Made by a program: the position numbers and the translations under genes
Origin: a virus
IMG/VR virus record: IMGVR_UViG_3300032242_001150
Coordinates: 1-21,341 of that record
Strand: one strand, 5' to 3'
Length of the DNA: 21,341 nucleotides
Shown: one piece after another, positions 3,947 to 19,361 of the stretch
How the letters are laid out: every line of letters begins with the position of its first letter
Numbering within the stretch: position 1 is the stretch's first letter
The notes under the pieces: generated by a model
What the model was told of the DNA's origin: nothing
Database searches by the model: none
The model's input: the letters and a program-made list of their open reading frames with translations, nothing else

Positions 3947-5122
3947 ATGCATAAGTCAATAAACGAAAATAATTATCTCTATATCCCTAACTTTATATCA
4001 CCTGAACGTGCTAATGAGTTATCAAAAAACTTTATAAATTTTTGCAAAAAACAAAATTTAGTTGGTGATAGTCAAGCAGAGAATAGCCATTCAGCATATA
4101 ACTATATAGATTTTTTAGAATTACTATGCGAAAAGACTGTTGAAGTAGGAATGTTTTTAGGAGAAACTGTATTACCCACATATTCATATGCTAGAGTATA
4201 TAAAGAAGGAAGTACATTATCTCGCCATAGAGACAGAGCAGAATGTGAAATAAGTATTACACTTCATCTTTCCGGAGATACAGGTTGGCCTATATATATT
4301 CAAAAACCAGACGGTGAAGAAATATCATTAGATTTAGACACAGGTGATGCAATGTTGTACAGGGGTGATATTGCCGATCATTGGAGAGAACGATTTGAAG
4401 GTAAAGAGTATGTACAAGTATTTCTACACTATGTAAGAAGTAGAGGACCAAATAACAATTCATATTTTGATAAAACAAGAAATAATATGATTTTAATGGA
4501 CAACCCGGTAGAAGAATTATCTGATAAAATAAATCCAAAGTCTATTCCAAAAGTAACTTACAGTAAAAACCTAGATGATTATATTCAAATATTTGATAAT
4601 ATAGTTCCCATTGAACTATGTGATAGTTTCTTAAATGAATATATCAACAGTAACGAATGGAATAATACACATGTAGGGTCTGGTAATATTGATAAAACTA
4701 TTAGAAATTGTGATGTTATACCAACATCAAATATTCAGGTAATCGCAAGAAATCAAGATATTAGAAAATTATTAGATGACCAGTTGTTTATGTGTGCTAA
4801 TAACGCTATTAAACAATATAATAAAGTATTCCCTGAAGCAAAAATTGAGCAAGATAGTGGATATGAACTATTGAGATATAATGAAGGACAGTTTTATATT
4901 CAACATACAGATAGTTTCAGAAATCATCCTAGAGCAGTATCCTGTTCATTTATGATGAATGACGATTATGAGGGTGGGGAATTTGGATTCTTTTGCGGGG
5001 AAAAACAGTATAAAGTTAAGAAAGGTTCAGTTATTATGTTCCCTAGCAACTTTATGTACCCGCATGAAATAATGCCCGTAACTAAGGGAACACGTTATTC
5101 CATTATAACTTGGTTCATATAA
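3947..5122 (+). CDS. Two-domain 2-oxoglutarate/Fe(II) dioxygenase
   Basis: A 391-residue protein with two double-stranded beta-helix oxygenase domains in tandem. Domain 1 (about 1-165) shows SRHRDRAECE (H94-x-D96) and a distal His at 145 in ADHWRE. Domain 2 (about 205-391) has the prolyl-4-hydroxylase-like set: H320-T-D322, H373 in MYPHEI and R383 in GTRYSIITW, the expected 2-oxoglutarate-binding arginine. YEGGEF and the MFPSNF turn are typical of the family. Established: these enzymes use Fe(II), O2 and 2-oxoglutarate to hydroxylate protein, nucleic acid or small-molecule substrates. The substrate here is unknown; a virion or fibre protein or a host protein are possibilities. Both domains seem to keep metal ligands, so neither is an obvious dead copy. 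Confidence 0.85.
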   Translation: MHKSINENNYLYIPNFISPERANELSKNFINFCKKQNLVGDSQAENSHSAYNYIDFLELLCEKTVEVGMFLGETVLPTYSYARVYKEGSTLSRHRDRAECEISITLHLSGDTGWPIYIQKPDGEEISLDLDTGDAMLYRGDIADHWRERFEGKEYVQVFLHYVRSRGPNNNSYFDKTRNNMILMDNPVEELSDKINPKSIPKVTYSKNLDDYIQIFDNIVPIELCDSFLNEYINSNEWNNTHVGSGNIDKTIRNCDVIPTSNIQVIARNQDIRKLLDDQLFMCANNAIKQYNKVFPEAKIEQDSGYELLRYNEGQFYIQHTDSFRNHPRAVSCSFMMNDDYEGGEFGFFCGEKQYKVKKGSVIMFPSNFMYPHEIMPVTKGTRYSIITWFI

Positions 5123-5180: not shown

Positions 5181-5831
5181 ATGAAAATCAGTCATTTACA
5201 AGAAGGTACAGTTGCAGGGGATCCTGGGATTACTCAGAATGCCGGTGACGCACCTCGATTTGGCCGCAATCCAACCGTACTAGAAAAAGAAAAGAAGACT
5301 GATAAAGTAGAAGAAACCACTGCAGGGTGTGTTGCTACAGTCGCAGCTCCAATTGGTAAGATGAACAAGCGTAGTAATAGTATATTCTCAGGAATTAAGA
5401 CTAGTAAAAAATATGCCAATAGCAGTAAAGCCGGTATCTATGAAGATGAGATAAGCGAAGAAAATCTACTTGCTAAACAAAAAAAAGAAGAACTATTCAA
5501 AAAAGCAAAACTACGTGATTTGGGTAAACGTAGAACAATATCTGATGTACTTCTCAGAAAACAAATTGAACAAGCAATGTTAGAAGAAATGGATATGATG
5601 GAAGAAGACGACAACAACTTCTGGTATCATGGTCCTCATGCAGTCGCACAAGAACTACATAGAATACATAACAAACCTACAATAACAACAGAAGATATAC
5701 ATCAATTATGGGAGGGATATCCTCCAACACATATAAGTGTTATTAATAATAAACCTTTTATGGAAAAGCCTGATGTTGCTAGTATATTAAAAGCACATAA
5801 GGAATTAATAGAGAGTGGTGAACTAATATGA
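5181..5831 (+). CDS. Putative internal head protein with capsid-targeting-like N-terminus
   Basis: A 216-residue protein. Its first eight residues, MKISHLQE followed by G, fit a T4-type capsid-targeting peptide ending at an LxE|G site for the prohead protease. Then come a Gly/Ala/Thr-rich segment (TTAGCVATVAAPIGK), a basic stretch (MNKRSNSIFSGIKTSKKY), a Lys/Glu-rich helical region (about 85-140) with an acidic MEEDDNN patch, and a more folded C-terminus (NFWYHGPHAVAQELHRIHNK; HQLWEGYPP). No catalytic motif is recognised. It is first in a translationally coupled run; its stop overlaps the next start as ATGA. The internal-protein role is inferred from the N-terminus and context only. Confidence 0.6.
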   Translation: MKISHLQEGTVAGDPGITQNAGDAPRFGRNPTVLEKEKKTDKVEETTAGCVATVAAPIGKMNKRSNSIFSGIKTSKKYANSSKAGIYEDEISEENLLAKQKKEELFKKAKLRDLGKRRTISDVLLRKQIEQAMLEEMDMMEEDDNNFWYHGPHAVAQELHRIHNKPTITTEDIHQLWEGYPPTHISVINNKPFMEKPDVASILKAHKELIESGELI

Positions 5832-6823
5832 AAATAAATCAAATTATAATTGTAGAAAATAAACTAAATGAATTTGCTCCAGCAGGTGCGGGTGATGATA
5901 GAGAACCCGATGGAGATGAAATATTATTTAAATTAGCACAAAAATGGTGGCTAGGTACCGAACAAGATATGATTCGTGCAGAACGTGCATTGGCATCAAT
6001 GGGTTGGGAAATTGGTGAAGACGAAGGTAGTTATGATAATGGTGGTGTGTTTGTTGTACGTGCCGGTGATGAACACGGTAAAAGTTATCAATCATGGCCG
6101 CATGAAGAATTAGTAGACGAAGGACAAACAAGTGATATGCGTAGTTTCTTTAGTACGCAACAACCACTTAACCCCGCAACTCCCATACCTTCTATGGGTT
6201 CAAGCACTGGTCCAACAATTGCTACTGTTACTAGACCAAATGAAAGTATGGAAGAAGGTGAAAATTGGAGTAAGCATAACAATCCACGTGCAGGTGGTAT
6301 GAGTCAAAAATCTGTAAAGAGTTATCGCCGTAGTCACCCAGGTAGTAAAATTCAAACTGCTGTAACTACTAAGCCTAGTAAGTTAAAGAAGGGTAGTAAA
6401 TCTGCAAAGCGCCGTGCTAGTTTTTGTGCAAGAATGCGTGGCATGAAGAAGCATCGCACTGGTGCTAAGACAGCACGTGATCCAAATAGCAACATTAATA
6501 AGAGCCTTCGTAGATGGCATTGCGAGAGTGTAGAAGAATTGCAACAGTTACTAATGATTGCTGAACAGAAGATTAATGAAGCAAAGAATTGGAAACAACA
6601 AGCCGCTATTGCTATTGCTAAAAAGAATGAAGTCAAAGAAGGTAAGCCTGAAGAAAAAGAAGCAGATTACGGTGATGACTACCAAGATATGGTAAAACGT
6701 GTAGGTCAAAAGGCAAAACAACAAGAGTTGGCAAAGAAGAAAAAAGAAGAAAAGCCAAAAGAGTTAGACGAGTCTACTGAACAATTAAACAAAATAATTA
6801 AACTGTCAGGATATAAGAAATGA
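5828..6823 (+). CDS. Modular basic protein, putative internal head protein
   Basis: A 331-residue mosaic. MKINQIIIVE then N fits a targeting peptide with an IxE site, and LNE at 13-15 gives a second. Module 1 (about 12-96) is an acidic globular domain (FAPAGAGDDREPDGDEI; KWWLGTEQDMIRAERALASM; GWEIGEDEGSYDNGGVFVV). I recall this type from uncharacterised proteins of uncultured phages. After a Thr/Pro linker, module 2 (about 146-232) is very basic, with KKGSKSAKRRASFCARMRGM and RRWHC; C200 and C232 are its only visible cysteines. The tail is a Lys/Glu-rich coiled-coil-like region ending QLNKIIKLSGYKK. The basic module could bind packaged DNA. Start and stop both overlap neighbours as ATGA. Confidence 0.65.
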   Translation: MKINQIIIVENKLNEFAPAGAGDDREPDGDEILFKLAQKWWLGTEQDMIRAERALASMGWEIGEDEGSYDNGGVFVVRAGDEHGKSYQSWPHEELVDEGQTSDMRSFFSTQQPLNPATPIPSMGSSTGPTIATVTRPNESMEEGENWSKHNNPRAGGMSQKSVKSYRRSHPGSKIQTAVTTKPSKLKKGSKSAKRRASFCARMRGMKKHRTGAKTARDPNSNINKSLRRWHCESVEELQQLLMIAEQKINEAKNWKQQAAIAIAKKNEVKEGKPEEKEADYGDDYQDMVKRVGQKAKQQELAKKKKEEKPKELDESTEQLNKIIKLSGYKK

Positions 6824-8064
6824 ACATTATAGAGTTAATGGAAGGTGCAACACCTAAACTACCAGGAGCATTTAATGGTGTTAAAGTAATGACGCCACAA
6901 CAGTTCGTTTCTACTCAAGGTGATGAAGAGGTAGATGAAGCAACTGTATTACCAGCAGACCAACGTGAATTAAGTGGGCAAGAGTTTCAAGATTACATGA
7001 CACGTATCAAGGGTACTGATGATATAGACAAGAAGACTGGTCAAGTTAAAGTAGACAAGAAGGGTATTCCTAAGTATACAACAGGTAAGACAAAGACTGA
7101 CAAGTATAAGATGCCATATATACATCGTAGTAGTGCATTAGAATACTACGATGAAGGTGGTAAACGCTTCAAAGAGGAAGCAGTTATCAATGCATTGAAA
7201 CAACGCCCTAAAAAGTTACTAAAGCAAAATGAAAAGATGAAGCATAGTAATGGCGACTTAGAACAATTTTTCAACGTTGGCTTTGCAGCATTAACTGGTG
7301 TAGCAGTTGACGAATCAACAGATAAATTAATCATTGTAAACACATGTCCAGGTGCAGGTAGTTGTAAAATAGATTGTTTTGCAATGAAGGGTGGCAAGAT
7401 TCAATTCAAAGCGGCTTGGTTAAGTGATGGTCGTATATTAACATATCTGTTAAATGATCCTACTGGATTCTTTGATACACTAAGCAATGAAATTGGTAAA
7501 GAAGAAAGTTTGGGACAAAAGGGTGGTTATAGTGTTACTATACGTTGGCATGATGCCGGTGACTTCTTTAGTCCAGAATACTTAGACCTAGCATTAAAAA
7601 TGGCACAAAAGCATCCTAAGGTTAAGTTCTACGCTTATACTAAAATGGCAGGTGCTGCATTAGCACAAAAGCCAAACAACTTCATTATCAATTGGAGTGA
7701 AGGTGCTAATACATCACAAGAGAAGCAAGTTAAACAAAACGATCCTAATTTAGATAAGACTAAGAATAGTCGTATTGTTCCTGAGAAGTTATTCTATGAC
7801 TTACTAAAGAAAGATGCTAAAGGTAACTTAGATAAAGGACCAGATGGTCAATGGCAAGTTGCTGATTCAGAAAAATTACAAGAGTTAAAACAACGTTTGG
7901 CACAAGCATATGGTATTAGTGCTAATAGTATCTTATCATACGATGAGTACATGAGTAAGCCTAAGGTCGGTGGTATAAAGTATAATGTTATTGTTGCGCC
8001 GGGTGAGGGTGACGTAAGTGCTAATGACCAAAACGTTCTTTCTACATTATTATTGAGACACTAA
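6820..8064 (+). CDS. GP88-like phage protein with capsid-targeting-like N-terminus
   Basis: A 414-residue protein. MNIIELME then GA is a good LxE|G candidate site; VDE|A at 38-40 is another. The core (about 150-300) resembles the phage gene product 88 family: TCPGAGSCKIDCFAM with C176, C182 and C186, then VTIRWHDAGDFFSPEYLDLA (R242, H244, D248), then KVKFYAYTKM. In family members I recall a CPG(A/T)-C-C cluster followed by R-x-H-x-x-GDF. Biochemical activity is unknown; the conserved Cys/His/Asp set suggests a metal or catalytic site. The first ~140 residues look like a charged linker. The ATGA overlap upstream and the three-base gap to the Dps gene indicate one transcript. Family call moderate; packaging inferred. 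Confidence 0.6.
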   Translation: MNIIELMEGATPKLPGAFNGVKVMTPQQFVSTQGDEEVDEATVLPADQRELSGQEFQDYMTRIKGTDDIDKKTGQVKVDKKGIPKYTTGKTKTDKYKMPYIHRSSALEYYDEGGKRFKEEAVINALKQRPKKLLKQNEKMKHSNGDLEQFFNVGFAALTGVAVDESTDKLIIVNTCPGAGSCKIDCFAMKGGKIQFKAAWLSDGRILTYLLNDPTGFFDTLSNEIGKEESLGQKGGYSVTIRWHDAGDFFSPEYLDLALKMAQKHPKVKFYAYTKMAGAALAQKPNNFIINWSEGANTSQEKQVKQNDPNLDKTKNSRIVPEKLFYDLLKKDAKGNLDKGPDGQWQVADSEKLQELKQRLAQAYGISANSILSYDEYMSKPKVGGIKYNVIVAPGEGDVSANDQNVLSTLLLRH

Positions 8065-8067
8065 AAT

Positions 8068-8508
8068 ATGTTATCAGATAGCCTAAAAATATTATTAGCA
8101 AGCACACAAAGTTTTGCTATCAAAACACAGAACTTTCATTGGAACGTTGAAGGAAGTAATTTCCCTCAATATCATATGTTCTTAGATACATTATACCAAG
8201 ATGTAAATGAAACTATTGATCCAATCGCCGAATATGTAAGAGTACTAGGTAGTTATACACCTGGTAGTTTACAACGTTACGGTGAGTTAACAATCATTGA
8301 GGATCAAACAAAGATTCCACGTGCCCAACTAATGTTTGTTGAATTATTACAAGATACTGAAAAGATGGGTGATTTAGTTGTTCAAATCTTTGACCAAGCA
8401 ACACAAGACCGTCAACAAGGTATTGCTAACTACATGGCAGAACTTCAAGATTTATATGGTAAGAAAGCATGGTTCATTCGTAGTATATTGAAAGTAGAAC
8501 GAGAGTAA
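8068..8508 (+). CDS. dps: Dps-family DNA-protection ferritin
   Basis: A 146-residue four-helix Dps-type protein. The ferroxidase ligands are all present with the spacing of E. coli Dps (H51, H63, D67, D78, E82): here H24 (QNFHWNVEG), H36, D40, D51 and E55 (DPIAEYVRVLG). The C-terminal helix (GKKAWFIRSILK) is also family-like. Established: Dps forms 12-subunit shells that oxidise Fe(II) with peroxide, store iron and often bind DNA. There is no long Lys-rich N-terminal tail, so DNA binding by the E. coli mechanism is not evident. It lies three bases after the GP88-like gene in the putative internal-protein run but lacks a targeting peptide. It may protect phage or host DNA from oxidation, or sequester iron. 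Confidence 0.85.
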   Translation: MLSDSLKILLASTQSFAIKTQNFHWNVEGSNFPQYHMFLDTLYQDVNETIDPIAEYVRVLGSYTPGSLQRYGELTIIEDQTKIPRAQLMFVELLQDTEKMGDLVVQIFDQATQDRQQGIANYMAELQDLYGKKAWFIRSILKVERE

Positions 8509-8515
8509 ATATATA

Positions 8516-8587
8516 ATGAATAATTATCCAGTATATCCCGAAGATGACGGCTACGATAGATTTCGTAACCCATATAGTCCTGTGTAA
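8516..8587 (+). CDS. Possible 23-residue peptide
   Basis: ATG at 8516 opens a 23-codon frame, MNNYPVYPEDDGYDRFRNPY followed by SPV and stop at 8585-8587. It fills the 82-base gap between the Dps gene and the next gene almost exactly. It is rich in Tyr, Pro and Asp with no hydrophobic segment. The upstream sequence is GAGAGTAAATATATA, a weak ribosome site, but AGTAAATA also resembles the late-promoter element, which would give a nearly leaderless RNA. It could equally be chance. Confidence 0.3.
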   Translation: MNNYPVYPEDDGYDRFRNPYSPV

Positions 8588-8590
8588 ATT

Positions 8591-9994
8591 ATGAGATTTA
8601 ATGAATTTAATAACGTAAATGAAGATATCGGTTTACCTACGGATAAGGGTGTGACTGATAAATTTGGTTCATATAGACCTGGTTCAGATAAAAAAGTTTG
8701 GGGTACAGGTAGTACTGCAAAGAATATACCAAGTTCATTAGATGATGTAAGACCTGGAAATACTGATAAAAAAGTTTGGGGTACAGGTAGTACTGCTAAA
8801 CCACCTTATCCTGTTGATAGTCTTGCTACTAATACTGGCACTTCATATAATTTAAAAGATGATCCATTGGGTAAGGCTAGCGCGGGCTCAAAAGAAATGG
8901 GACCTAATATATCGTCTAAGCCGTCTACTACTGCAACTACTACCCCTACTACTGCCACTACCACTAAACCCATACCTCCTATGTCTACTGCCGATAGATT
9001 TAGACAAGTAGATGCTGGTAATATTAAACCTAATATTAAACCTAATATTACTCCTAGCACAGTAGCGCCGGCAGCCACTGCTACAACTGCCACAACTGCT
9101 ACACCCGGTGCCGCTCAGGCTACCGGCTTCAATGCTGGTCAGAAAGTTAAAGCAGGTATTGATAGTCTTAGAGCCGGTGGCATAAATGGACTTAAAGCAG
9201 GAGCACAGACTTTAGGTAAAAAAGCCTTAGGTAGAGTAATACCGGGTGCTGCATCAGTGATGGATACAGCGGATGCAATCAGAAGATATAATGACGATGA
9301 TAAATCAGGAGCAGTAATTGCAGCACTAGGTGCCGCAGGCGGGTTGGTTCCTGGCCTTGGGCTACCGGTATCGTTAGGTGCAGCAGGTTTGAATCAAGCC
9401 ATAGATGCATATAAGAGAATGCCTGCAAAAGAAACCCCGCCACAACAAGCACCTACACAGCAACAAGCCGCACCCACACAACAAGCACCCACACAACAAT
9501 CTACTATACAACCACCAGCACAACCTAGACAATTAGAACAACCTAGAAAATCATATGCAGGTACTGCAGGTGCACAAGCAATTCAACGAGCGAATCCTGA
9601 TATTATTAAAAACGTTAATGATATAACAGCGGGCGATACAATTAATTTACCTAACGGTACACAATATACAATAAAACCCGGCGACACATTAGATAAAATT
9701 GCACAGAATCAATCTACAGCACAAGCACCAACAGTCACTCCTAGACCGTCAATTACGCAAACGCAATCATCTAATACGCCTTCAACAACACAAGCAACAA
9801 ATACAACAGATAACTCACCGGATGATACTTTCAGAAATCAAAATTTAGAAAGAATGAAAGACCAAGCAAATCAAGCTTCTACTACTTATCCATCTAAGAC
9901 TATTGTACCACCTGCTACAAAAGATGCATCTCAAGTACAAGCAGAAGAGGTTAATCCATTACACAGAATTAAATCACTTGCTGGTTTAAAATAA
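8591..9994 (+). CDS. Low-complexity protein with LysM halves, putative internal head protein
   Basis: A 467-residue protein. MRFNEFNNVNE then D is a weaker targeting-like N-terminus (VxE). A 13-residue unit (DKKVWGTGSTAK) occurs twice within residues 33-70. Thr-rich linkers (about 110-175) lead to a Gly/Ala-rich amphipathic segment (about 180-275; AVIAALGAAGGLVPGLGLPV) that could meet a membrane. A Gln/Pro/Thr linker follows (about 280-318). Next are two LysM-like halves in unusual order: NPDIIKNVNDITAGDTINLP, then YTIKPGDTLDKIAQNQ (about 336-374). Established: LysM binds peptidoglycan. It ends LHRIKSLAGLK, like the C-terminus of the gene at 5828. Inferred: a virion-carried protein contacting the cell wall or membrane during DNA entry. 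Confidence 0.6.
   Translation: MRFNEFNNVNEDIGLPTDKGVTDKFGSYRPGSDKKVWGTGSTAKNIPSSLDDVRPGNTDKKVWGTGSTAKPPYPVDSLATNTGTSYNLKDDPLGKASAGSKEMGPNISSKPSTTATTTPTTATTTKPIPPMSTADRFRQVDAGNIKPNIKPNITPSTVAPAATATTATTATPGAAQATGFNAGQKVKAGIDSLRAGGINGLKAGAQTLGKKALGRVIPGAASVMDTADAIRRYNDDDKSGAVIAALGAAGGLVPGLGLPVSLGAAGLNQAIDAYKRMPAKETPPQQAPTQQQAAPTQQAPTQQSTIQPPAQPRQLEQPRKSYAGTAGAQAIQRANPDIIKNVNDITAGDTINLPNGTQYTIKPGDTLDKIAQNQSTAQAPTVTPRPSITQTQSSNTPSTTQATNTTDNSPDDTFRNQNLERMKDQANQASTTYPSKTIVPPATKDASQVQAEEVNPLHRIKSLAGLK
8687..8796 (+). repeat. 32-base exact direct repeat (two copies)
   Basis: The same 32 bases, beginning GATAAAAAAGTTTGGGG, occur at 8687-8718 and 8765-8796, 78 bases apart and in frame. They code the duplicated DKKVWGTGSTA peptide. 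Identity at the nucleotide level suggests a recent duplication. Confidence 0.85.
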
Positions 9995-10028
9995 ACACAC
10001 CTTAGGGCCGTGTGCGCGGCTGCTGCGT

Positions 10029-10080
10029 AACAAAATCCATTCGCTACGGACTTTTGTTAAAGTGAGCACTTTTTTATTTT
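10029..10080 (+). terminator. Two hairpins and T-rich tract, probable terminator
   Basis: The arm AACAAAATCC (10029-10038) pairs with 10048-10058 (GGA, bulged C, TTTTGTT). Next come a five-base stem AAAGT/ACTTT (10059-10063, 10068-10072) and TTTATTTT. It lies after the LysM-half gene and before a late-promoter-like element, so it plausibly ends the upstream transcript. The second stem is short and AT-rich, so termination may be weak. The preceding stretch 9995-10028 is unusually GC-rich. Confidence 0.4.
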
Positions 10081-10082
10081 AA

Positions 10083-10090
10083 GATAAATA
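10083..10090 (+). promoter_or_regulatory. Late-promoter-like GATAAATA, near-leaderless
   Basis: GATAAATA differs from the T4 late element TATAAATA only at the first base. It ends five bases before the ATG at 10096, and no Shine-Dalgarno sequence is visible. If used as a T4-type late promoter, RNA would start at about the ATG, giving a leaderless message. The minus-strand gene at 16553 has the same arrangement. Confidence 0.35.
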
Positions 10091-10095
10091 TAAGT

Positions 10096-12414
10096 ATGAG
10101 AGCATACGAATTAGAAGAATCCGCCGTAGAAGAACTTAAGGATAGATTACCTAAACTTAAGTTACATAACTACGACACAATTGACCGTTTAATGCAACAT
10201 ATTTCCATTAAGCATAAAATCACGGGCAAGAAATTACATGACATGTTTGTTAGTAAATATGGTCATACACCTGACACTTGGGTTAAGAAAATCACAAACA
10301 AATTAAGTGAAGATGATATAGCAGAAGGTTTCAATGATGATAATTTCACAATTGATGATATTCACCGATTAGAACAGATTAAAGATTTTGAAACTCTAAA
10401 GGCTAGAGCCAAACATCTAATCAAGGGAAAACCTGCAAGACGCATGAAGCCTGAAAAAATCGCATATTTTTATAACAGAGTAGATACACTAACATCACCT
10501 ATGAAGGTTATTAAGATGATGTACGACTTGTTATTAGCCGGCGAGGGTATGAGAACGATAGGTTCACAAAATAGCACTAATCCAAATTTATACCAAAGAC
10601 GTTTTACCGAAGAGCAAGGTGTAGCGGAAGGTCACGCAGACCAACAACACAAAATCTTCAAGAAGAATGGTAAGCCAGTAGGTGAAGTTGGCATTGACGC
10701 AGAAGCAAGTCCTGGCAACGGCAAATGGTATATGACTTGCTATGGCGTAGTGAGTTACGGTGGTTACGATTCATACGAAGAAGCAGTGGCGGAACTAAAA
10801 CATTGTCTAAAGCAAGGTGTGGCGGAAGGCATCGAGACTGTTAATGGCGGTAAGTATAATGTTGATCCAAGCAAATATTATGTATGGGCTTGGGATGGTG
10901 CAGTAGTGTTATACGGGGAATATGATAACATACAAGATGCTAAAATAAATTTACCTAAGATAGAACAACGTGCTATTGAACGTTTAGGACCTTATGCAAA
11001 AGATGCATTTGAATTAAGTACAGGTAAAGATTTACTACAACGATATGGTAAAAAAAATGTGGCGGAAGAGTGGAGCAAAAAATACAAGAGCAGTATCAAT
11101 TGTAGCCACCCTAAAGGATTCAGTCAAAAGGCACATTGTGCCGGCAAACGCAAGCACAACGAAAGTGTCGAGATGGAAGATACATGTCCTGATTGCGGCA
11201 TGTGTCAAACACATGGAGACCATTCACACAACAACTTAGAAGAAGCATGTTGGAAAGGTTATCACAAAGAAGGTAATAAAAAGATGTTTGGTAAGACATA
11301 TCCAAACTGTGTGAAAAATACAAATGAAGAACAACTTGATGAAAAATGCTGGGATTCATATAAACAAGTTGGTATGAAAAATAAAGGTGGTAAACAAGTT
11401 CCTAACTGTGTACCAAAAGAAAGCATTGAAGAAGAAAAATGCCCGCATTGTGCAGGACCAATGTTCAGCGAAATGATGATGAACGAAAAGAAAGATGCTT
11501 GTTACTATAAAGTAAAGAGTCGTTATAAAGTATGGCCTAGTGCTTATGCTAGTGGTGCACTAGTTAAGTGCCGTAAGAGTCATGGCAATTGGGGCGACGG
11601 TGGGCAGAAAAGCGAAAGCATGACAGTAGAACAATTAGAAGAAAGTTTACATGATTGGTTTACTAAAGAAAAATGGGTTCGTATGGATACTAAAGGTAAT
11701 ATAAAAGGTCCATGTGCAAGAGAACCCGGTGAAGGTAAACCTAAATGTTTGCCACAAGCCAAAGCACATAGTTTAGGAAAAAAAGGTCGTGCTAGTGCAG
11801 CGCAACGTAAACGTAGAGAAGATCCTAATCCTGATCGTCATGGTGCTGCAATCAACGTCAATACAAAGAAAAAATCAAACGAAGGTACAGAACAACCTGT
11901 GACAGAACTTACTAAACAATCTGCCATCAAACAATATAAAGATATTCAAAACTACAAACCTAATTTTAAAACTAAACCAAAGTCTGACACAAAAGAATTT
12001 TTAAAAATTACAGTAGATAATCCAAACCAAAAAAAAAGTAAAGTAAGTGAGGGCGTAGAAGGCCCGGAAGATATTCAAAAGATAAAAGATTTTATTAAGT
12101 GGTCATATAAGACACTTAATATGCAAAAGCCTTATCCAAAGATTACACTTAGCAAAAATACTGAAGTAGCACAAGCAGGTCATCATACAGGTGTACACAA
12201 AGGTAATAATATTTGGGTATATGTCGGTAACAGAAATATGATTGATATCTTCCGTACCATATTCCATGAACTAACACATCATCGCCAAATGCAATTAAAC
12301 ATGATTAAAGACGGTGATAGTTATCCAGGTAGCCCAATTGAGATGTTGGCAGATATGGCTGCCGGCAAATACATCAAAGTTTACGGTAAAGATCACCCTG
12401 AAATGTTCCAATAA
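10096..12414 (+). CDS. Modular polyprotein-like protein with C-terminal zinc metallopeptidase
   Basis: A 772-residue mosaic. MRAYELEE then S is a targeting-like peptide. Later candidate prohead-protease sites separate modules: IAE77|G, VAE178|G, VAE244|G, VAE324|E, LEE383|A, LEE516|S and VSE652|G. Modules include a helical domain (about 10-160), a small domain with KWYMTCYGVVSYGGYDSYEE (about 180-238), one with YYVWAWDGAVVLYGEYDN (about 250-320), a basic INCSHPKGFSQKAHCAGKRKH, a CPDCGMCQTHGDHSH metal-like site (364-377), two CWxxY...PNCV repeats (385-405, 418-438), ACYYKVKSRYKVWPSAYASG, and DWFTKEKWVRMDTKG. The end (about 655-772) has HELTHHRQ (H724, E725, H728) with a downstream Glu (E749), as in gluzincin-type peptidases. 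Inferred: internal head polyprotein, with the peptidase acting in the capsid or host. Confidence 0.65.
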   Translation: MRAYELEESAVEELKDRLPKLKLHNYDTIDRLMQHISIKHKITGKKLHDMFVSKYGHTPDTWVKKITNKLSEDDIAEGFNDDNFTIDDIHRLEQIKDFETLKARAKHLIKGKPARRMKPEKIAYFYNRVDTLTSPMKVIKMMYDLLLAGEGMRTIGSQNSTNPNLYQRRFTEEQGVAEGHADQQHKIFKKNGKPVGEVGIDAEASPGNGKWYMTCYGVVSYGGYDSYEEAVAELKHCLKQGVAEGIETVNGGKYNVDPSKYYVWAWDGAVVLYGEYDNIQDAKINLPKIEQRAIERLGPYAKDAFELSTGKDLLQRYGKKNVAEEWSKKYKSSINCSHPKGFSQKAHCAGKRKHNESVEMEDTCPDCGMCQTHGDHSHNNLEEACWKGYHKEGNKKMFGKTYPNCVKNTNEEQLDEKCWDSYKQVGMKNKGGKQVPNCVPKESIEEEKCPHCAGPMFSEMMMNEKKDACYYKVKSRYKVWPSAYASGALVKCRKSHGNWGDGGQKSESMTVEQLEESLHDWFTKEKWVRMDTKGNIKGPCAREPGEGKPKCLPQAKAHSLGKKGRASAAQRKRREDPNPDRHGAAINVNTKKKSNEGTEQPVTELTKQSAIKQYKDIQNYKPNFKTKPKSDTKEFLKITVDNPNQKKSKVSEGVEGPEDIQKIKDFIKWSYKTLNMQKPYPKITLSKNTEVAQAGHHTGVHKGNNIWVYVGNRNMIDIFRTIFHELTHHRQMQLNMIKDGDSYPGSPIEMLADMAAGKYIKVYGKDHPEMFQ

Positions 12415-12417
12415 TAT

Positions 12418-12446
12418 TTGACTTCTACATGTAGTTAATGTATAAT
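12418..12446 (+). promoter_or_regulatory. Sigma70-type promoter before dsbA-like gene and polymerase
   Basis: TTGACT (12418-12423), a 17-base spacer, then TATAAT (12441-12446). This matches the bacterial consensus at 11 of 12 positions with ideal spacing. The spacer holds the 10-base palindrome CTACATGTAG (12425-12434), a possible regulator site. The start is predicted near 12453, just before the AGGAG ribosome site at 12458. Confidence 0.75.
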
Positions 12447-12467
12447 AACTACTTTATAGGAGCAGTT

Positions 12468-12728
12468 ATGGCAAGTAAAATCTTTAGCGGTGAACAAAAA
12501 ATCAAATTAACTCAGTTGGTGAATGAAGGCATGACAGTCTTACATGAGATTGATACCCTTAATGAGGGACTAAGCGATACTGTAAAGGCAATCGCAGAAG
12601 AACTAGAAGTTAAACCTAGTGTACTTAAAAAGGCAATTCGTGTTGCCCATAAAGCAAGTTTAACACAAACTAACCAAGACAACGAAGAACTTAACACTAT
12701 TTTAGAAACTGTGGGCAAGACACTTTGA
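12468..12728 (+). CDS. dsbA: DsbA-like double-stranded-DNA-binding late transcription protein
   Basis: An 86-residue, highly helical protein. I chose the ATG at 12468 (MASKIFSGEQKIKL) because AGGAG lies five bases upstream; the ATG at 12438 overlaps the promoter. Residues about 25-80 (EIDTLNEGLSDTVKAIAEEL followed by EVKPSVLKKAIRVAHK) resemble T4 DsbA, also under 100 residues, in the order of a helix with KDI/TVK, an acidic EEL turn, a (V/K)xxxxKxAI helix and a Glu-rich C-terminus. Established: T4 DsbA binds DNA and helps late transcription. It is directly upstream of DNA polymerase with a four-base overlap. The match is by eye on a short protein, so another small DNA-binding protein is possible. 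Confidence 0.5.
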   Translation: MASKIFSGEQKIKLTQLVNEGMTVLHEIDTLNEGLSDTVKAIAEELEVKPSVLKKAIRVAHKASLTQTNQDNEELNTILETVGKTL

Positions 12729-15433
12729 GTTATGTAGATGCCATCCACGCAAGGGATGAAGATAGAATTTATGTAGTAGAACGAGGGAATGACGGCAAGC
12801 GTTATTTCAATGAGTTCCCTGCAAACTATGTTTTCTATTATCCAGATAGAAAAGGTAAGTTTCGTAGTATCTATGAAGATTCACTAAGCAGATTTAGTAC
12901 ACGTAAGCGTACCGAATTTGAAAAAGAAAGACGAATGTATCATGGCAAACAATTGTTTGAAAGTGATGTAAATGTTGTCTTTCGCTGTCTCAGTGAAAAC
13001 TATTTAGGCATTGATGCACCGAAACTTCATACTTGTTTCTTTGATATTGAGGTTGACTTTGATCCTGAGAAAGGATTTAGTCCAACTGATGACCCATTCA
13101 ATCCAGTAACTGCAATTAGTTGTTACTTAGATTGGCTAGACCAATTAGTAACATTATGTATCGCACCTAAACATATGAGTGACGAAACAGCTAATGAAAT
13201 TGTAGGTAGATTTGACAACACAATGCTTTTCAAAACTGAAAAGGAAATGTTTGATGTATTCTTTCAACTAATTGAAGATGCTGATGTATTGACTGGTTGG
13301 AACTCAGAAGGATATGATATACCATATATGGTTAATCGTGTTACAAGAGTTATGTCAAAAGATGATACTCGCAAATTTTGTTTAATGGGTCAACTACCCA
13401 AGCCAAGAAAGTATGAACGTTTCGGTAAAGAAGAAACAACATATGACTTAGTTGGTCGCATTCATATGGACTATTTACAATTGTATAAGAAATACAATTA
13501 TGAAAGTCGCCATAGTTATAAACTAGATGCTATCGGTGAGATGGAAGTTGGTGAAAACAAAACACAATATGAAGGTACTCTTGACCAACTATACAATAAA
13601 GACTGGGAAAAGTTTTTAGAGTATAACAGACAAGATACTATGTTGTTGGTTAAAATTCATCGTAAGACAAAGTTTTTAGAATTGGCTAATCAATTGGCGC
13701 ATGAGAATACAGTATTATTACCAACAGTAATGGGTTCTGTAGCAATGATTGAAATGGCTATTTTTAATGAAGCCCACGCACGTGGATTAATGGTTCCAGA
13801 TAAAAAACATAGGAGTGAACATGAAGACGAACAACAAGCGGCAGGTGCCTTCGTTGCTACGCCCAAAACAGGTATGCACGAATATGTCGGAGCAGTTGAC
13901 ATTAACTCGCTCTACCCCTCGGTTATTAGAGCAATCAATATGGCAGGTGAAACAATCGTCGGTCAAGTTAGACAAACGCTTACCAACCAATATATGAAAG
14001 ACAAGGGTCTTAGGTTAGCACAAGAAAAGAAAAGATATAAAGCCGGCGATGATGATGTTGGTGGTGCTATTCTATGGGAAGGATTGTTTGGTGCATTAGA
14101 GTATACCGCTATTATGAACCAAGAACGGGGAACTATTCTTACACTTGATTATGAAGATGGTCGTAGTGAAGAAATGAGTGCGGCAGAGATATGGAAACTT
14201 ATCTTTGATAGTCACAAGCCCTGGATACTTAGTGCGAATGGTACAATCTTTAGTTATGAAAAAGAAGGTGTTGTACCTGGACTACTAAGTCGTTGGTATA
14301 GTGATAGAAAAGATATGCAAAAGAAATTGCGTGAATCAACTACTATTGAGGATCGTGAATATTGGGATAAGCGTCAATTGGTTCGTAAGATTTTATTGAA
14401 CTCTGCTTATGGTGCGTTGTTGAATGAACATTGCCGTTTCTATGACAAGCGTATTGGTCAATCAGTAACATTATGCGGTCGTCAAATTGTTCGTCATATG
14501 ATGAGCCAAATCAATGAGATTGTAACAGGCAAGTATACACACGAAGGTGATGCTATTGTATATGGTGATACTGATAGTTGTTATTTTAGTGCATATAATA
14601 CATTGAAAGAACAAATTGACAGTGGTGATTTGGTATGGGATAAAGATGTTTGTATTCAGTTATACGATAGTATTGCTGAAGAAACTAATGACAGTTTCCC
14701 TGCATTTATGGAGAAGGCTTTTCATGCACCACGCAAGAATGGTGAAATCATCAAAGCAGGTCGTGAACTAATTGGTGACCGTAGTATCTTTATCACTAAG
14801 AAACGCTATGCTATCAATATCTTTGACAAAGAGGGCAAGCGTAAAGATAAAGATGGTAGTAAGGGTGATGTTAAGGCTATGGGTCTTGACTTGAAACGTG
14901 CTGACACTCCTAAATATGTACAAGAGTTCTTGATGAGTGTATTGTGCATGGTAATTCAAGATGGTTATGGTCGTGAAGAAGTTATTGAAAAAGTAAAAGA
15001 GTTTAAACGAGTATTGTCAGAACAAGAAAGTTGGACTAAAGGTTCTCCCAAGAGTGTTAATAAACTAACGATGTATGCTGAAAAAGAAAAGCGTGAGGGC
15101 AAAACAAATATGCCCGGACACGTTCGTGCGGCAATCAACTATAACTATTTACGTAACATGAATGGTGACCAATATAGTATGAAAATCGTTGATGGTATGA
15201 AAGTGGTCGTATGTAAATTGAGAAGTAATCCACTTGGTTATACAAGTATTGCTTACCCAACTGATGAACTACGATTACCTAAATGGTTTAAAGACTTACC
15301 ATTTGATGATGAAGCAATGGAACAAACATTAGTAGATGAAAAGATTGACAACTTACTTGGTGTACTGGATTGGAAGATCCGAGAGAACACAGATGTGAGT
15401 ACAACCTTTGATGATTTATTCACACTCAGTTAA
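12725..15433 (+). CDS. 43: Family B DNA polymerase, T4 gp43-like
   Basis: A 902-residue replicative polymerase, close to the length of T4 gp43 (898). 3'-5' exonuclease motifs: FFDIE (D107, E109), GWNSEGYDIPY (N193, D198) and EYNRQD (D304). Polymerase motifs: A, DINSLYPS (392-399); B, KILLNSAYG (555-563); C, YGDTDS (613-618). The extreme C-terminus, TTFDDLFTLS, resembles the clamp-binding tail of T4 gp43. The start is TTG at 12725, inside the TTGA overlap with the preceding stop. It is preferred because the first downstream Met is residue 71 and would remove the T4-like N-terminal domain, and the frame closes shortly upstream. It synthesises phage DNA with the clamp. The end overlaps the convergent minus-strand gene by eight bases. 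Confidence 0.97.
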   Translation: MSYVDAIHARDEDRIYVVERGNDGKRYFNEFPANYVFYYPDRKGKFRSIYEDSLSRFSTRKRTEFEKERRMYHGKQLFESDVNVVFRCLSENYLGIDAPKLHTCFFDIEVDFDPEKGFSPTDDPFNPVTAISCYLDWLDQLVTLCIAPKHMSDETANEIVGRFDNTMLFKTEKEMFDVFFQLIEDADVLTGWNSEGYDIPYMVNRVTRVMSKDDTRKFCLMGQLPKPRKYERFGKEETTYDLVGRIHMDYLQLYKKYNYESRHSYKLDAIGEMEVGENKTQYEGTLDQLYNKDWEKFLEYNRQDTMLLVKIHRKTKFLELANQLAHENTVLLPTVMGSVAMIEMAIFNEAHARGLMVPDKKHRSEHEDEQQAAGAFVATPKTGMHEYVGAVDINSLYPSVIRAINMAGETIVGQVRQTLTNQYMKDKGLRLAQEKKRYKAGDDDVGGAILWEGLFGALEYTAIMNQERGTILTLDYEDGRSEEMSAAEIWKLIFDSHKPWILSANGTIFSYEKEGVVPGLLSRWYSDRKDMQKKLRESTTIEDREYWDKRQLVRKILLNSAYGALLNEHCRFYDKRIGQSVTLCGRQIVRHMMSQINEIVTGKYTHEGDAIVYGDTDSCYFSAYNTLKEQIDSGDLVWDKDVCIQLYDSIAEETNDSFPAFMEKAFHAPRKNGEIIKAGRELIGDRSIFITKKRYAINIFDKEGKRKDKDGSKGDVKAMGLDLKRADTPKYVQEFLMSVLCMVIQDGYGREEVIEKVKEFKRVLSEQESWTKGSPKSVNKLTMYAEKEKREGKTNMPGHVRAAINYNYLRNMNGDQYSMKIVDGMKVVVCKLRSNPLGYTSIAYPTDELRLPKWFKDLPFDDEAMEQTLVDEKIDNLLGVLDWKIRENTDVSTTFDDLFTLS

Positions 15434-16553
15434 ACCGGTCTCTAACATAATCGTCATAGTCTTTAAAAAGTAACATCAATGTTTCATGTGGGGTATTTGG
15501 ATTCGTTACTACGTTGGCCCTAACACGATTCCATGTGTTTTTTGCAAGTAGCATCAATGCTTCAGGTGGAGTGTTTATATTGGATGCTACGTGCAATTGA
15601 ATACTAACGACCGGGTCTTTTGCAAGTAGCATCAATGCTTCAGGTGGGGTGTTTCTATTTAATGCTACTAAATCTCTAACTTCCATATCCTTATCTTTTG
15701 CTAGTAACATTAATTGTTCAGGTGGAACTTCTGGTCTATCGGCAATTAATTTTTTTGCACGTAACGTCATTTTAGATACATCAATCTTAGAGAAGTCATA
15801 ATGTGCCCTAATATCCGAATGTGAATCTGAATGGCTAGTCTTACGTAGACGATAGTTACCCTCAGGACTATTGGAATTTACAAACTTGCAAAATTTATTA
15901 ACTACTTCTCTGAAGCCGGCTACATTAGTTCCATACACAGAGTCTGGAAAAAGTACCATGTGATTTTTGTAATAATATGGTTTTATCAATATTCGGCCCA
16001 ATGGGTTATCAATATTTTTGTCATTTTCTCTAATTAAGTATGCAATGATTGCTCCATTTTTAATGTCTGCTGGTATATATTTATTATTAACATTTGGACC
16101 ATCATTCAAATCCATGCATGAAACCCACCCGCGGTCTGTACTCATACCTGCAATATCAACCGGATCTCTTGAAAACACAACCATAAGAGGAGCAGCCTGT
16201 CGTGTAGCAGCCCTAATTGGGTCATTTGCAAATTTATTTAATAACTCTTTATCCTTGATTAATTTTCCAATTTTTATTTTTTTAGTTGAGTCACTGGATT
16301 TTTTTGCCAATCCACGCTTATAGTCATCAATTTCATATCCAAGATCAGAAATTTTGGTTTGCAGTTCTTTTTGAGTAGATGAAATTTCCTCACCTGAACT
16401 GGAAGGTTGGTCCTCTAGAGGTGCATAAATCCGAGACTTTCCTTTAAATATATTATCGTGTATATTAGCATCATATTTTGATCCCAAATCTTTATATAAT
16501 TTGGTGATTTGTTCAGGTGTTAACGCTTCAATTAAAAATTCATATACTCTCAT
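15426..16553 (-). CDS. LRV-like repeat protein, putative internal head protein
   Basis: A 375-residue protein on the minus strand, the only one in the window. MRVYEFLIE then A closely resembles the T4 internal-protein targeting peptide (MKTYQEFIAE|A), with an LIE site. After a charged helical region (about 15-110), a central domain (about 120-230) contains STDRGWVSCMDLNDGPN, IIAYLIREND and GRILIKPYYY. I recall this layout from uncharacterised large-phage proteins but cannot name it. The C-terminus has four 26-residue repeats with N-T-P-P-E-A-L-M-L-L-A-K cores (from 273, 299, 325 and 351), resembling leucine-rich variant (LRV) solenoids used for protein binding. No Shine-Dalgarno sequence is visible. 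Its isolated orientation between polymerase and clamp suggests an acquired gene. Confidence 0.65.
   Translation of the reverse strand: MRVYEFLIEALTPEQITKLYKDLGSKYDANIHDNIFKGKSRIYAPLEDQPSSSGEEISSTQKELQTKISDLGYEIDDYKRGLAKKSSDSTKKIKIGKLIKDKELLNKFANDPIRAATRQAAPLMVVFSRDPVDIAGMSTDRGWVSCMDLNDGPNVNNKYIPADIKNGAIIAYLIRENDKNIDNPLGRILIKPYYYKNHMVLFPDSVYGTNVAGFREVVNKFCKFVNSNSPEGNYRLRKTSHSDSHSDIRAHYDFSKIDVSKMTLRAKKLIADRPEVPPEQLMLLAKDKDMEVRDLVALNRNTPPEALMLLAKDPVVSIQLHVASNINTPPEALMLLAKNTWNRVRANVVTNPNTPHETLMLLFKDYDDYVRDRFN
15429..15737 (-). repeat. Four 78-base coding repeats (LRV-like)
   Basis: These code the 26-residue units above. On the plus strand the shared block GTAGCATCAATGCTTCAGGT is identical in the two middle copies (near 15548 and 15626). 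The outer copies (near 15470 and 15704) are diverged. Unequal conservation suggests the middle pair duplicated most recently. Confidence 0.7.
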
Positions 16554-16679: not shown

Positions 16680-17402
16680 ATGAAAGATTATTTGCAAGAT
16701 ATGATTGCACACACAAGTGCATTAGGATTTATTGACCTTATTAAGGTTACAGGCACTGACCAAGAAACTAAAATCAATGCTAGTTCTGAAAAACAAACAG
16801 TAATGATTACTGGTATATTTAAGAATCCTAGCGCAGATTTTATCGGTGTATTTGGTATGCCCAATCTACCTAAACTAAAAACTATTCTAAGTTTTGATGA
16901 GTATGGTGATGATAGCAAAATCTCAATGGTTCGTAATGGTGCAAACTTACCAGAGTCTGTTCACTTTGAAAGTAAGAACGGTGACTTTATAAACGATTAT
17001 CGTTTGATGAGTAAAGAAATTGCAGATGACCAAGTAAAGATTTTTGCATATAAAGGTAAAGACTGGGACGTTGAGTTTGTTCCTAGCGTAGAAAGTATCT
17101 TACGATTAAAGAAACAATCACAGGTTCATAGTGAAGAAGAAACATTTGCTACACGTACAGCAAATGGTAATTTATATTTTGACTTTGGTGATGTAAGTAC
17201 GCATAATGGTAACTTTGTATTCCAAGCAGGTGTTACTGGTACTTTGTCAAAGAAACTAAAGTGGCCTGTTACACACGTAATCAGCATTTTGAATCTTCCA
17301 GGTGATAAAATATTCCGTATCAATGGTGCAGGTGCATTAGAGATTACAGTTGACAGTGGTCTTGCAAATTATAGTTACTTGTTACCAGCACACATGAAGT
17401 GA
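16680..17402 (+). CDS. 45: Probable DNA polymerase sliding clamp (gp45-like)
   Basis: A 240-residue protein, near T4 gp45 (228). It begins MKDYLQDMIAHTSALGFIDL and is made of alternating short strands with few charged clusters, as in clamps. The segment LPKLKTILSFDEYGDDSKIS resembles the LNGFLGILSL...DDAEIS region of T4 gp45, and VTGTLSKKLKWPV and ITVDSGLANYSYLLPA fit clamp-like terminal strands. Established: gp45 is a trimeric ring that tethers gp43 and also activates late transcription. Its own strong promoter, and the polymerase and DsbA-like genes nearby, agree with this. The match is by eye and clamps diverge strongly. A good AGGA ribosome site precedes the ATG. Confidence 0.55.
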   Translation: MKDYLQDMIAHTSALGFIDLIKVTGTDQETKINASSEKQTVMITGIFKNPSADFIGVFGMPNLPKLKTILSFDEYGDDSKISMVRNGANLPESVHFESKNGDFINDYRLMSKEIADDQVKIFAYKGKDWDVEFVPSVESILRLKKQSQVHSEEETFATRTANGNLYFDFGDVSTHNGNFVFQAGVTGTLSKKLKWPVTHVISILNLPGDKIFRINGAGALEITVDSGLANYSYLLPAHMK

Positions 17403-17802: not shown

Positions 17803-19361
17803 TGCAAGACGATTTATCAGCAAAACACAATGATGAGTGGGCAACATTCTTACCCGCAGTTAGCAGTTTTTATATTGCTGGCTTAGGTAAGCAACGTGAG
17901 GGTGAGAACTATTTTGATGCCGCACGTATCCCTCAACAATTCAATGGTGATGTTGAATGTCTTAACTTTTTGAATAAGCAACAAGGTCTTTACTATTATA
18001 AGTGGGGACTATATAGTGCAGGTCATGCTAATTTAGATCCAACTAAAGATGACCATAATGAATCTATCATTCGCAAACGTGATCCTAGTACATTTATGTT
18101 GGGCGATAGTGGTGGTTTTCAAATTCTAAAAGCACAATGGCCGGCTGACTGGAAAGATCCTAACTGCCCACGTGCTATGGTAAAGCGTAAAGCAGTATTG
18201 ACTTGGATGGATACATATATGAACTATGGTATGTGTTTAGATATCCCATCACAATCATTAACTACATATCATATCAAAGATCCAAAGACAGGTAAATCTG
18301 CACATGGTATTAAAACTATTGAAGATGCTATTAAAGCAACACATATCAATAACGAATACTTTATTCAACATCGTAATGGTGAATGTAAATTCTTAAATGT
18401 ATTACAGGGTCGTACTCATGCACAAAGTGATAGTTGGTATGAGGAGATGAAGAAGTATTGCGACCCGAATATCTACCCAGATAAACATTTTAATGGTTGG
18501 GCATTTGGGGGTCAGAATAAGATTGATGTTGAGTTAATGCTTAAACGTATGGTTGGTATTATCCATGATGGACTATTACAACCAGGTAAACATGATTTGA
18601 TTCATTGTTTGGGTACAAGTATATTAGAATATGCAGTATTGTTTACTGATATTCAAAAGGCAATACGCAAATATCATAACCCAAATCTAAAAATTACATT
18701 TGATTGTGCGAGCCCATTCTACGGTGCAGCAAAAGGTTTGGCATATTTCAACACTAGCATTGAACATAATAAGAAATGGTCATACAGTATGGAAAAAACT
18801 GCGGAGAAAAAGTCGTATGCAAACGACACTCGCAAATATCGTGATGCAGTATTGGCTGAAGGTATCCATAAAGTCTTTACAGATAGCCCAGTAACTGATA
18901 AACTATTGCTTAAGGATATGTGTTATCGTGGTCAGGGTTTCTTAGGTCAGCACGGTAAAGAAACAAAAACTAGTTGGGATACCTTAAGTTATACTTTGAT
19001 TCAAAGTCATAATGTTTGGATGCATATGACAGCAGTCCAAGAGGCTAATCGTAAGTATGAACAAGGTGTTATTCCTAGTATGTTAATGAATCAACGATTT
19101 GAAAAAATCTTATTCAAAGACATTATTGACCAAGTATTTGCATGTAAGACAAAAGAAGAATCTATTATTTTGATTGAAAAGAATGAAAAGTTATGGGAAC
19201 AATTCAGAAGTGGTAGTCAAGGCATGAGTGGTAAGAAAACTACTAATACAATTTCTATCATGGAATCAGGATTGTTTCAATTAGAATCAATAGAACCAGA
19301 AGTAGAAGAAGTAATAGAAGATAGTGATGACGAAATGGAAAAGGCATTAATTGATGACTGA
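17802..19361 (+). CDS. dpdA: DpdA/TGT-like 7-deazaguanine transglycosylase
   Basis: A 519-residue member of the tRNA-guanine transglycosylase superfamily, larger than bacterial TGT. The motifs occur in TGT order: GDSGGFQ (D102, general acid/base position), CLDIPS (D147, base recognition), VLQG (Q202, G203), GWAFGG (236-237), HCLGTS and FDCASP (D301, nucleophile position). No CxCxxC zinc cluster is visible, unlike tRNA-acting TGT. With phage context this favours DpdA, which swaps guanine in DNA for preQ0-type bases. Established: DpdA-type modification protects phage DNA from many restriction enzymes. The C-terminal ~40 residues are acidic. No preQ0 synthesis genes are in the window, so the precursor would come from the host or from genes elsewhere. 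A tRNA substrate remains possible. Confidence 0.75.
   Translation: MQDDLSAKHNDEWATFLPAVSSFYIAGLGKQREGENYFDAARIPQQFNGDVECLNFLNKQQGLYYYKWGLYSAGHANLDPTKDDHNESIIRKRDPSTFMLGDSGGFQILKAQWPADWKDPNCPRAMVKRKAVLTWMDTYMNYGMCLDIPSQSLTTYHIKDPKTGKSAHGIKTIEDAIKATHINNEYFIQHRNGECKFLNVLQGRTHAQSDSWYEEMKKYCDPNIYPDKHFNGWAFGGQNKIDVELMLKRMVGIIHDGLLQPGKHDLIHCLGTSILEYAVLFTDIQKAIRKYHNPNLKITFDCASPFYGAAKGLAYFNTSIEHNKKWSYSMEKTAEKKSYANDTRKYRDAVLAEGIHKVFTDSPVTDKLLLKDMCYRGQGFLGQHGKETKTSWDTLSYTLIQSHNVWMHMTAVQEANRKYEQGVIPSMLMNQRFEKILFKDIIDQVFACKTKEESIILIEKNEKLWEQFRSGSQGMSGKKTTNTISIMESGLFQLESIEPEVEEVIEDSDDEMEKALIDD

Follow-up and report, generated by a model that had tools for sequence, protein, structure and literature searches.

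Capsid-targeting-like N-termini and a cassette-built protein among the predicted head-internal proteins of a giant T4-like phage

The closest described counterparts of the system reported here are the internal proteins IPI, IPII and IPIII of phage T4, whose mature parts are unrelated and which share a capsid-targeting sequence (CTS) of about 10 residues ending in [FLI][IL]xE|, where the bar marks the cut (Mullaney and Black 1996; PMC9026906). Targeting by the T4 CTS works mainly through residues 4 and 7, and processing through residues 8 and 10 (PMC9026906). The injected T4 enzyme Alt is cut by gp21 at both ends, at ITE-6 and at LTE-619 (PMC5694885). We analysed a 21,341-nt window (positions 1 to 21,341 of the IMG/VR virus record IMGVR_UViG_3300032242_001150) from a giant (jumbo) T4-like water phage, in which six genes start with a similar tag of 8–11 residues. 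As in T4, there is a gp21-type protease, here encoded in the genomes of relatives, and the proteins behind the tag differ; on a matrix built from freshwater relatives, the T4 CTS comes out at the top of the T4 genes. The usual tag length here is 9 rather than 10, the tag starts with MRA, and the cargo is far more numerous, much larger and partly made of mosaic polyproteins with internal sites and a C-terminal gp22-like tag; in place of the two end sites of Alt, the exchangeable blocks are separated by as many as a dozen [LIVM]xE sites. It is highly probable that the six genes encode head-internal cargo, and rather probable that gp21 dices part of it, a polyprotein.

Three other systems are comparable. 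The inner-body and ejection proteins of phiKZ and SPN3US are ejected and carry propeptides cut after xxE by a gp21-related protease, but their motif is (S/A)xE, their propeptides are longer and no short tag is common to unrelated accessory proteins. Cyanophage virion enzymes (NMNAT, SAM hydrolase, APH-like kinase) were detected by mass spectrometry (MS), and several start with MK-x(5)-FLxE|-type tags; the excerpted text of the two reports makes no mention of a targeting tag (PMC10665884, PMC9602691). The polyvalent proteins described by Iyer et al. (2017; PMC5512222) are likewise mosaic, multi-domain and predicted to be packaged, and their domains include metallopeptidase, ParB and ART-like ones; the excerpts of that paper describe no conserved DNA linker or prohead-protease joints and propose that the proteins cleave themselves or act whole. 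The term 'polyprotein' was absent from the papers on prohead proteases that the literature search returned.

Tagged genes in the window and in its relatives

A search of IMG/VR with the 772-aa protein encoded at 10096 returned 19 loci. One of them (L005) sits in a 367-kb relative, G001, which has the gene order of the window and 74–91% DNA identity across the cargo and polymerase region, and another (L014) sits in a 148-kb contig, G002. All six open reading frames and N-termini of the preliminary description were found in the window at the positions given there. On the plus strand, the predicted tags are MKISHLQE|G (5181..5204) of a 216-aa protein (5181-5831), whose tag is identical in the G001 orthologue; MKINQIIIVE|N (5828..5857) of a 331-aa DUF6321/phrog_727 protein (5828-6823), which reads MKINQITIVE| in G001; MNIIELME|G (6820..6843) of a 414-aa GP88-like protein (6820-8064), in whose family the N-termini keep LxE|G; MRFNEFNNVNE|D (8591..8623) of a 467-aa LysM-fragment protein (8591-9994), MRFSEFNKINE| in G001; and MRAYELEE|S (10096..10119) of the 772-aa cassette polyprotein (10096..12414), with E|SA kept in all relatives. 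The sixth, MRVYEFLIE|A (16527..16553, minus strand; matrix score 19.4), opens the gene of an LRV-repeat protein (15426..16553, minus strand).

Each tag is thus an N-terminal peptide of about ten residues with a hydrophobic P3 and Glu at P1. A start of the form M[KRN]x(3-8)[LIVMF]xE was present in 6 of the 21 window genes of at least 80 aa, against 50 of 1321 (about 4%) in T4, RaK2, Phosso, Syn9 and Bellamy (p=1e-4). In these analyses a simple script called the gene starts, the contig sets contain redundancy, related sequences count as independent in most of the statistics, and several regular expressions were written after examples had been seen. The preliminary description had pointed to [LIV]xE at residues 8–11; the enrichment in the window holds (p=1e-4), but the bare motif is weak, being expected by chance in about 4–8% of genes. 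Counting it as a tag test was abandoned, as most T4-like genomes came out little above internal positions. Its claim that the proteins are otherwise unrelated is right in that they fall in different Pfam families, but not strictly, because the 5828 and 10096 proteins both hold phrog_727 blocks.

The tags were kept in five G001 orthologues, though the 5828, 6820, 8591 and 10096 proteins are just 27–59% identical overall. In the 6820 family, P3 was Leu in 45 of 46 distinct N-termini of a table pre-filtered on the motif, and P2 was free. Starts of the form M[KR]xx[EQ][FLI] were found at 13 of 320 true N-termini of G001 and 6 of 1842 internal Met (p=1.5e-7), and were likewise enriched at true N-termini in other relatives. 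Further G001 genes start with MRASEFITE|A, MRANEFLIE|Y, MRATEFIAE|L, MRANEFISE|S, MKSNEFNVNE|A, MKINEIINE|G and MRDIISLLE|D. The accessory LRV-repeat gene has no counterpart at the matching place in G001, while the tagged G001 gene 253554-254486 lies where the window has none; cargo is therefore gained and lost as units.

No Peptidase_S77 was found in the window, the record being only a 21-kb fragment. Both G001 and G002 encode a gp21 protease, beside which stand portal, an acidic core-like protein, gp22 and gp23 (gp22 and core assigned by position). The head genes and additional tagged genes that the preliminary description had suggested looking for are thus all present in a syntenic relative. 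The gp23 proteins of the group have LxE|S/N/T/A at the predicted site, in the expected place, in 65 of 65 distinct sequences.

Two observations concern the cluster itself: a Dps/ferritin-like gene without a tag (window 8068-8508) lies inside it, is also there in G001 and is near the cluster in G002; and among isolates, only four distant phage records were found with GP88-like relatives.

Tag matrix, T4 internal proteins and cyanophage virions

A position matrix was built solely from 20 distinct nine-residue N-termini of freshwater-relative contigs (consensus MRAxEF[IL]xE|) and fixed before it was run on T4 and on cyanophage S-CREM2. Its strongest columns are a basic residue 2, E5, F6, I/L7 and E9; when the cut sites are aligned, the conserved F, I/L and E stand opposite residues 7, 8 and 10 of the T4 CTS. 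Among 229 called T4 genes, the matrix placed ipIII and ipII at ranks 1 and 2, with gp21, gp22 and gp24 within the top 11, which bears out the T4-like nature of the tag without T4 input. Rank 3 was gp61.1 (MKTFKEFIKE|D, 54 aa, unknown function; T4 18966-19130, L130), which may be an overlooked T4 internal protein.

The frozen matrix was then used to score 219 annotated proteins of S-CREM2, and the scores were set against the virion proteome published for that phage (Table 3 of PMC10665884). The top three, gp154 (NMNAT-like, MKNFSSFLTE|A), gp14 (kinase, VKRFDAFLTE|E) and gp13 (MKDLHSFLTE|Q), are all MS-detected non-structural virion proteins. With structural proteins left out, 6 of 10 proteins scoring at least 3 were MS-detected, against 22 of 185 others (p=7e-4); the SAM hydrolase gp6 (MKDFDSFLEE|F) is one of the six. 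The NMNATs of S-SCSM1 (MKSFLQFLKE|A), Syn9 (MKKFSAFLSE|A) and Bellamy (MKSLFQFLNE|A) start alike, and that of S-SCSM1 was found in the virion (PMC9602691). The S-CREM2 virion protein gp160, with seven MS peptides, holds blocks homologous to blocks of the window polyprotein. The Cas9-like gp12 is also listed in S-CREM2 virions, but its start as annotated is untagged. We also observed that gp160 (L128, 16343-17236) and gp97 of S-SCSM1 (L136, 38122-38307), both virion proteins, carry a segment resembling the N-arm of the major capsid protein (GFTGAAAPxGPxAGYDPLM), a possible capsid-binding mimic.

These results bear on the reading that the N-termini are alike by chance or through translation initiation, as a lysine/arginine-rich amphipathic start, and target nothing. 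[LIV]xE carries little information and N-terminal M[KR] is common among phage genes, as this reading would have it; yet ipIII and ipII were recovered blindly, high scores go with MS detection in S-CREM2, orthologues keep P3 and P1 while varying P2, and the tag is associated with the linker described below. We regard this reading as very improbable.

A degenerate DNA pattern for MRAxEFIxE collected at least 93 proteins of at least 23 families with only the tag in common, their mature parts being unrelated. Among the cargo of G001 and its relatives are an Fe/Mn superoxide dismutase (E=7.5e-22), LysM combined with GH19, and DUF6267, together with weak GNAT, ParB_N and KptA-like matches below Pfam cut-offs. 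The dismutase gene (G001 190891-191445, L032; start MRDIISLLE|D) adjoins a tagged LysM-GH19 protein and could encode a virion-carried dismutase.

Some cargo also shares its other end with the gp22 scaffold. The 5828 protein ends in LNKIIKLSGYKK (6785..6820, plus strand) and the 8591 protein in LHRIKSLAGLK (9959..9991, plus strand), while the gp22 C-termini in G001, L151 and L164 read VIDLRRLAGL or VI[AD]IKRLAGL (VIDLRRLAGL in G001), and other cargo ends in similar LxRIxxLAGL peptides. Leaving gp22 aside, such ends were found in 8 of 208 tagged or linker proteins and in 1 of 942 others, this single exception holding a linker-like KGVVEG. Copies of the peptide also adjoin linkers within GP88-like relatives; in L009 10247-11953 and L011 6877-8496, a peptide of this kind (e.g. 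LNRIRKLSGLDEA) forms an internal block directly after a QGVxE linker. We put the chance that the C-terminal peptide is a second core-binding label at about even.

The peptide shared with gp22 could also mean that the tagged proteins are scaffold-core assembly factors, degraded or expelled before packaging like T4 gp22, gp67 and gp68 and never injected, and the many internal [LIV]xE sites would permit breakdown to peptides. Against such a role stand the catalytic folds in the cargo (superoxide dismutase, GH19, the weak GNAT/ParB/KptA-like matches and HExxH), the variable, accessory nature of the genes, and the detection of block relatives in mature S-CREM2 virions (PMC10665884). We consider it improbable.

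The cassette protein at 10096 and its linkers

The preliminary description had overlooked both this C-terminal tag and the cassette structure of the 10096 protein. The gene (plus strand) is a DNA patchwork of blocks 80–99% identical to different phages. Among relatives, the tag, the N-domain and a C-terminal metallopeptidase-like domain with HExxH (HELTHH, 12265..12282) are constant and the middle is wholly different; the protein has phrog_727 and other PHROG matches and no Pfam match. The best DNA matches are to G001 for aa 1-75 (88%), L009 for 75-173 (91%), L230/L236 for 174-245 (83%), G002 for 249-324 (99%), L208 for 323-418 (82%), L212/L218/L155 for 445-592 (80–82%) and again G001 for 644-772 (91%). 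The aa 249-324 block (10841..11068) shares 99.1% DNA identity with G002, an otherwise different phage.

The first four block junctions read IAE|G, QGVAE|G, QGVAE|G and NVAE|E. At the first (aa 75-78, 10318..10329) G001-like DNA stops and L009/L011-like DNA starts; the second and third are QGVAEG linkers (aa 174-179, 10615..10632; aa 240-245, 10813..10830, containing the conserved GGTGTGGCGGAA), and the fourth is KNVAEE (aa 320-325, 11053..11070). Further [LIVM]xE sites are LEE|A (11236..11244), which precedes a CWKGY cysteine block, LDE|K (11335..11343), which precedes a second CW block, and IEE|E (11425..11433), at the border where L212/L218/L155-like DNA starts.

QGVAEG is a repeated, in-frame, 18-bp linker conserved at the DNA level as CAAGGTGTGGCGGAAGGC (GTG in 25/32 copies, GCG in 22/32). 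In the first contigs, all 28 copies of its 12-bp core were in the reading frame; across 80 linker loci, 161 of 168 core copies were in frame 0 of a called gene and the remaining 7 in uncalled, open, mostly contig-edge frames. A scan with the 18-mer found it in at least 120 viral contigs, where by our estimate about one would be expected by chance. QGV[ATM]E occurred 19 times in tagged proteins and never elsewhere in G001, RaK2, T4, Phosso and two cyanophages, and the tag was found in 26 of 71 linker genes against 63 of 489 (p=3e-6). No QGVAEG linker was seen in Syn9 or Bellamy. In the literature searched, QGVAEG was not found in a phage context, the single GVAEG match being an immunology paper. 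As a clue to the host the linker was rejected: 257 Gb of bacterial genomes gave 26 single scattered matches, mostly high-GC and near chance for an 18-mer.

In linker copies with 1–4 mismatches, synonymous and nonsynonymous changes numbered 4:76 at Q, 12:29 at the first G, 27:18 at V, 27:32 at A, 18:4 at E and 38:74 at the last G. Two residues alone were clearly constrained: E, for which a uniform mutation model gives p=3e-14 and a Fisher test against Q p=1e-12, and V (p=2e-4), which is swapped mostly for M, L or I; A was marginal (p=0.03) and both G neutral. These p values are optimistic, because the copies are related by descent. Constraint on V (P3) and E (P1) points to a hydrophobic-x-Glu protease-site pattern rather than to an element acting purely as DNA or to an unspecific spacer.

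Block borders coincide with [LIVM]xE. In linker genes, 36% of the ends of DNA similarity had a G[VIM]xE linker no more than 18 nt away (6% at random), and 66% had some [LIVM]xE that close (20% at random). When all 20 residues were tried as X in [LIVM]xX, only E was clearly enriched at borders (2.95-fold; next N, 1.23), and it stayed enriched 2.33-fold with QGVAEG-type linkers masked. The best spacing was exactly one intervening residue, with V, M, I, F and L preferred at P3.

The joint is thus the place where blocks recombine. It is also, rather probably, a site where gp21 would dice the polyprotein; if so, any shuffled array would be freed as separate small proteins. The tags could instead be real and the linkers mere recombination joints or flexible spacers, the mosaic proteins acting whole as polyvalent proteins are proposed to do. 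The conserved linker DNA fits a recombination joint, the termini of the 10096 protein are constant, and P1 DdrB-type polyvalent proteins are a known multi-domain cargo (PMC5512222); but selection in decayed linker copies is limited to P3 and P1, and at linker-free borders [VMIFL]xE is again the one residue pair in excess. We hold whole-acting mosaics to be the less likely possibility, with perhaps one chance in a few.

Elsewhere in the window, 3947-5122 encodes a 2OG-Fe(II) oxygenase fusion; in its N-terminal half it matches PHROGs that bear the name ferrochelatase (phrog_3531, E=1e-67), and 16680-17402, in phrog_12062 (unknown function), adjoins the polymerase, a position that by itself would suggest a sliding clamp.

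Packaging, cutting and injection of the cargo

By analogy with T4 (PMC9026906, PMC5694885), the N-terminal tag (best form MRAxEF[IL]xE|), perhaps together with the C-terminal peptide, would bind the prohead core, so that the cargo co-assembles in the prohead; gp21 would cleave after [LIV]xE at the tag, and the freed protein would be retained with the DNA and then pass into the host. Cutting after [LIVM]xE at the block joints would process a polyprotein of exchangeable blocks of roughly 50–100 aa, whose joints encode [V/I/L/M]xE, often as the 18-bp linker. For this phage, packaging in the head is very likely, removal of the tag by cutting almost as likely, and injection likely, if a little less so. 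The capsid-targeting cargo proposed in the preliminary description is well supported, because four independent lines agree: the recovery of T4 internal proteins, the prediction of S-CREM2 virion proteins, the gp21, gp22 and gp23 genes of the relative, and the breadth of at least 23 tagged families.

Several points weigh against this interpretation. The virion proteome evidence comes from S-CREM2 rather than from this phage; S-CREM2 gp199 and gp16 score high and were not detected by MS, and its authors caution that the enzymes may have contaminated the virion preparation (PMC10665884). There are no head genes within the 21-kb window. [LIV]xE by itself is common, and three of the six tags (5181, 6820 and 8591) have low matrix scores, which leaves conservation and context as the grounds for them. 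Of the 71 linker genes with called starts, 45 had no recognised tag; some of these start with longer look-alikes such as MFVDDLFDQKTLTE|A, and some starts may be miscalled. P3 is V in the linker and L in the gp23 sites, for which reason cutting by gp21 at VxE remains a prediction. Finally, the AlphaFold2 model of the 772-aa protein, from six sequences, was poor (mean pLDDT 43.5) and joint exposure could not be read from it; pLDDT dips at residues 68–82 around the IAE|G joint, and the low-confidence model was otherwise unused.

With the tag, the injected proteins of uncultured jumbo phages can be sought from sequence, and the recurrence of NMNAT, a kinase and other enzymes in cyanophage virion proteomes gains a possible explanation. 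Tag and linker together yield a large catalogue of candidates for host takeover. Should the linker arrays be diced, they would be the first case that we found in the literature of a phage's polyprotein cargo being processed by its prohead protease, and a rule built into them would keep shuffled domains functional. More broadly, the case is evenly balanced that a widespread phage group of environmental metagenomes assembles the cargo that it injects from exchangeable domains in a polyprotein, in which one short in-frame DNA repeat serves both as the joint for swaps between phages and as the prohead-protease cut site that frees each domain inside the head; if it does, new combinations of host-takeover proteins would be functional without further adaptation.

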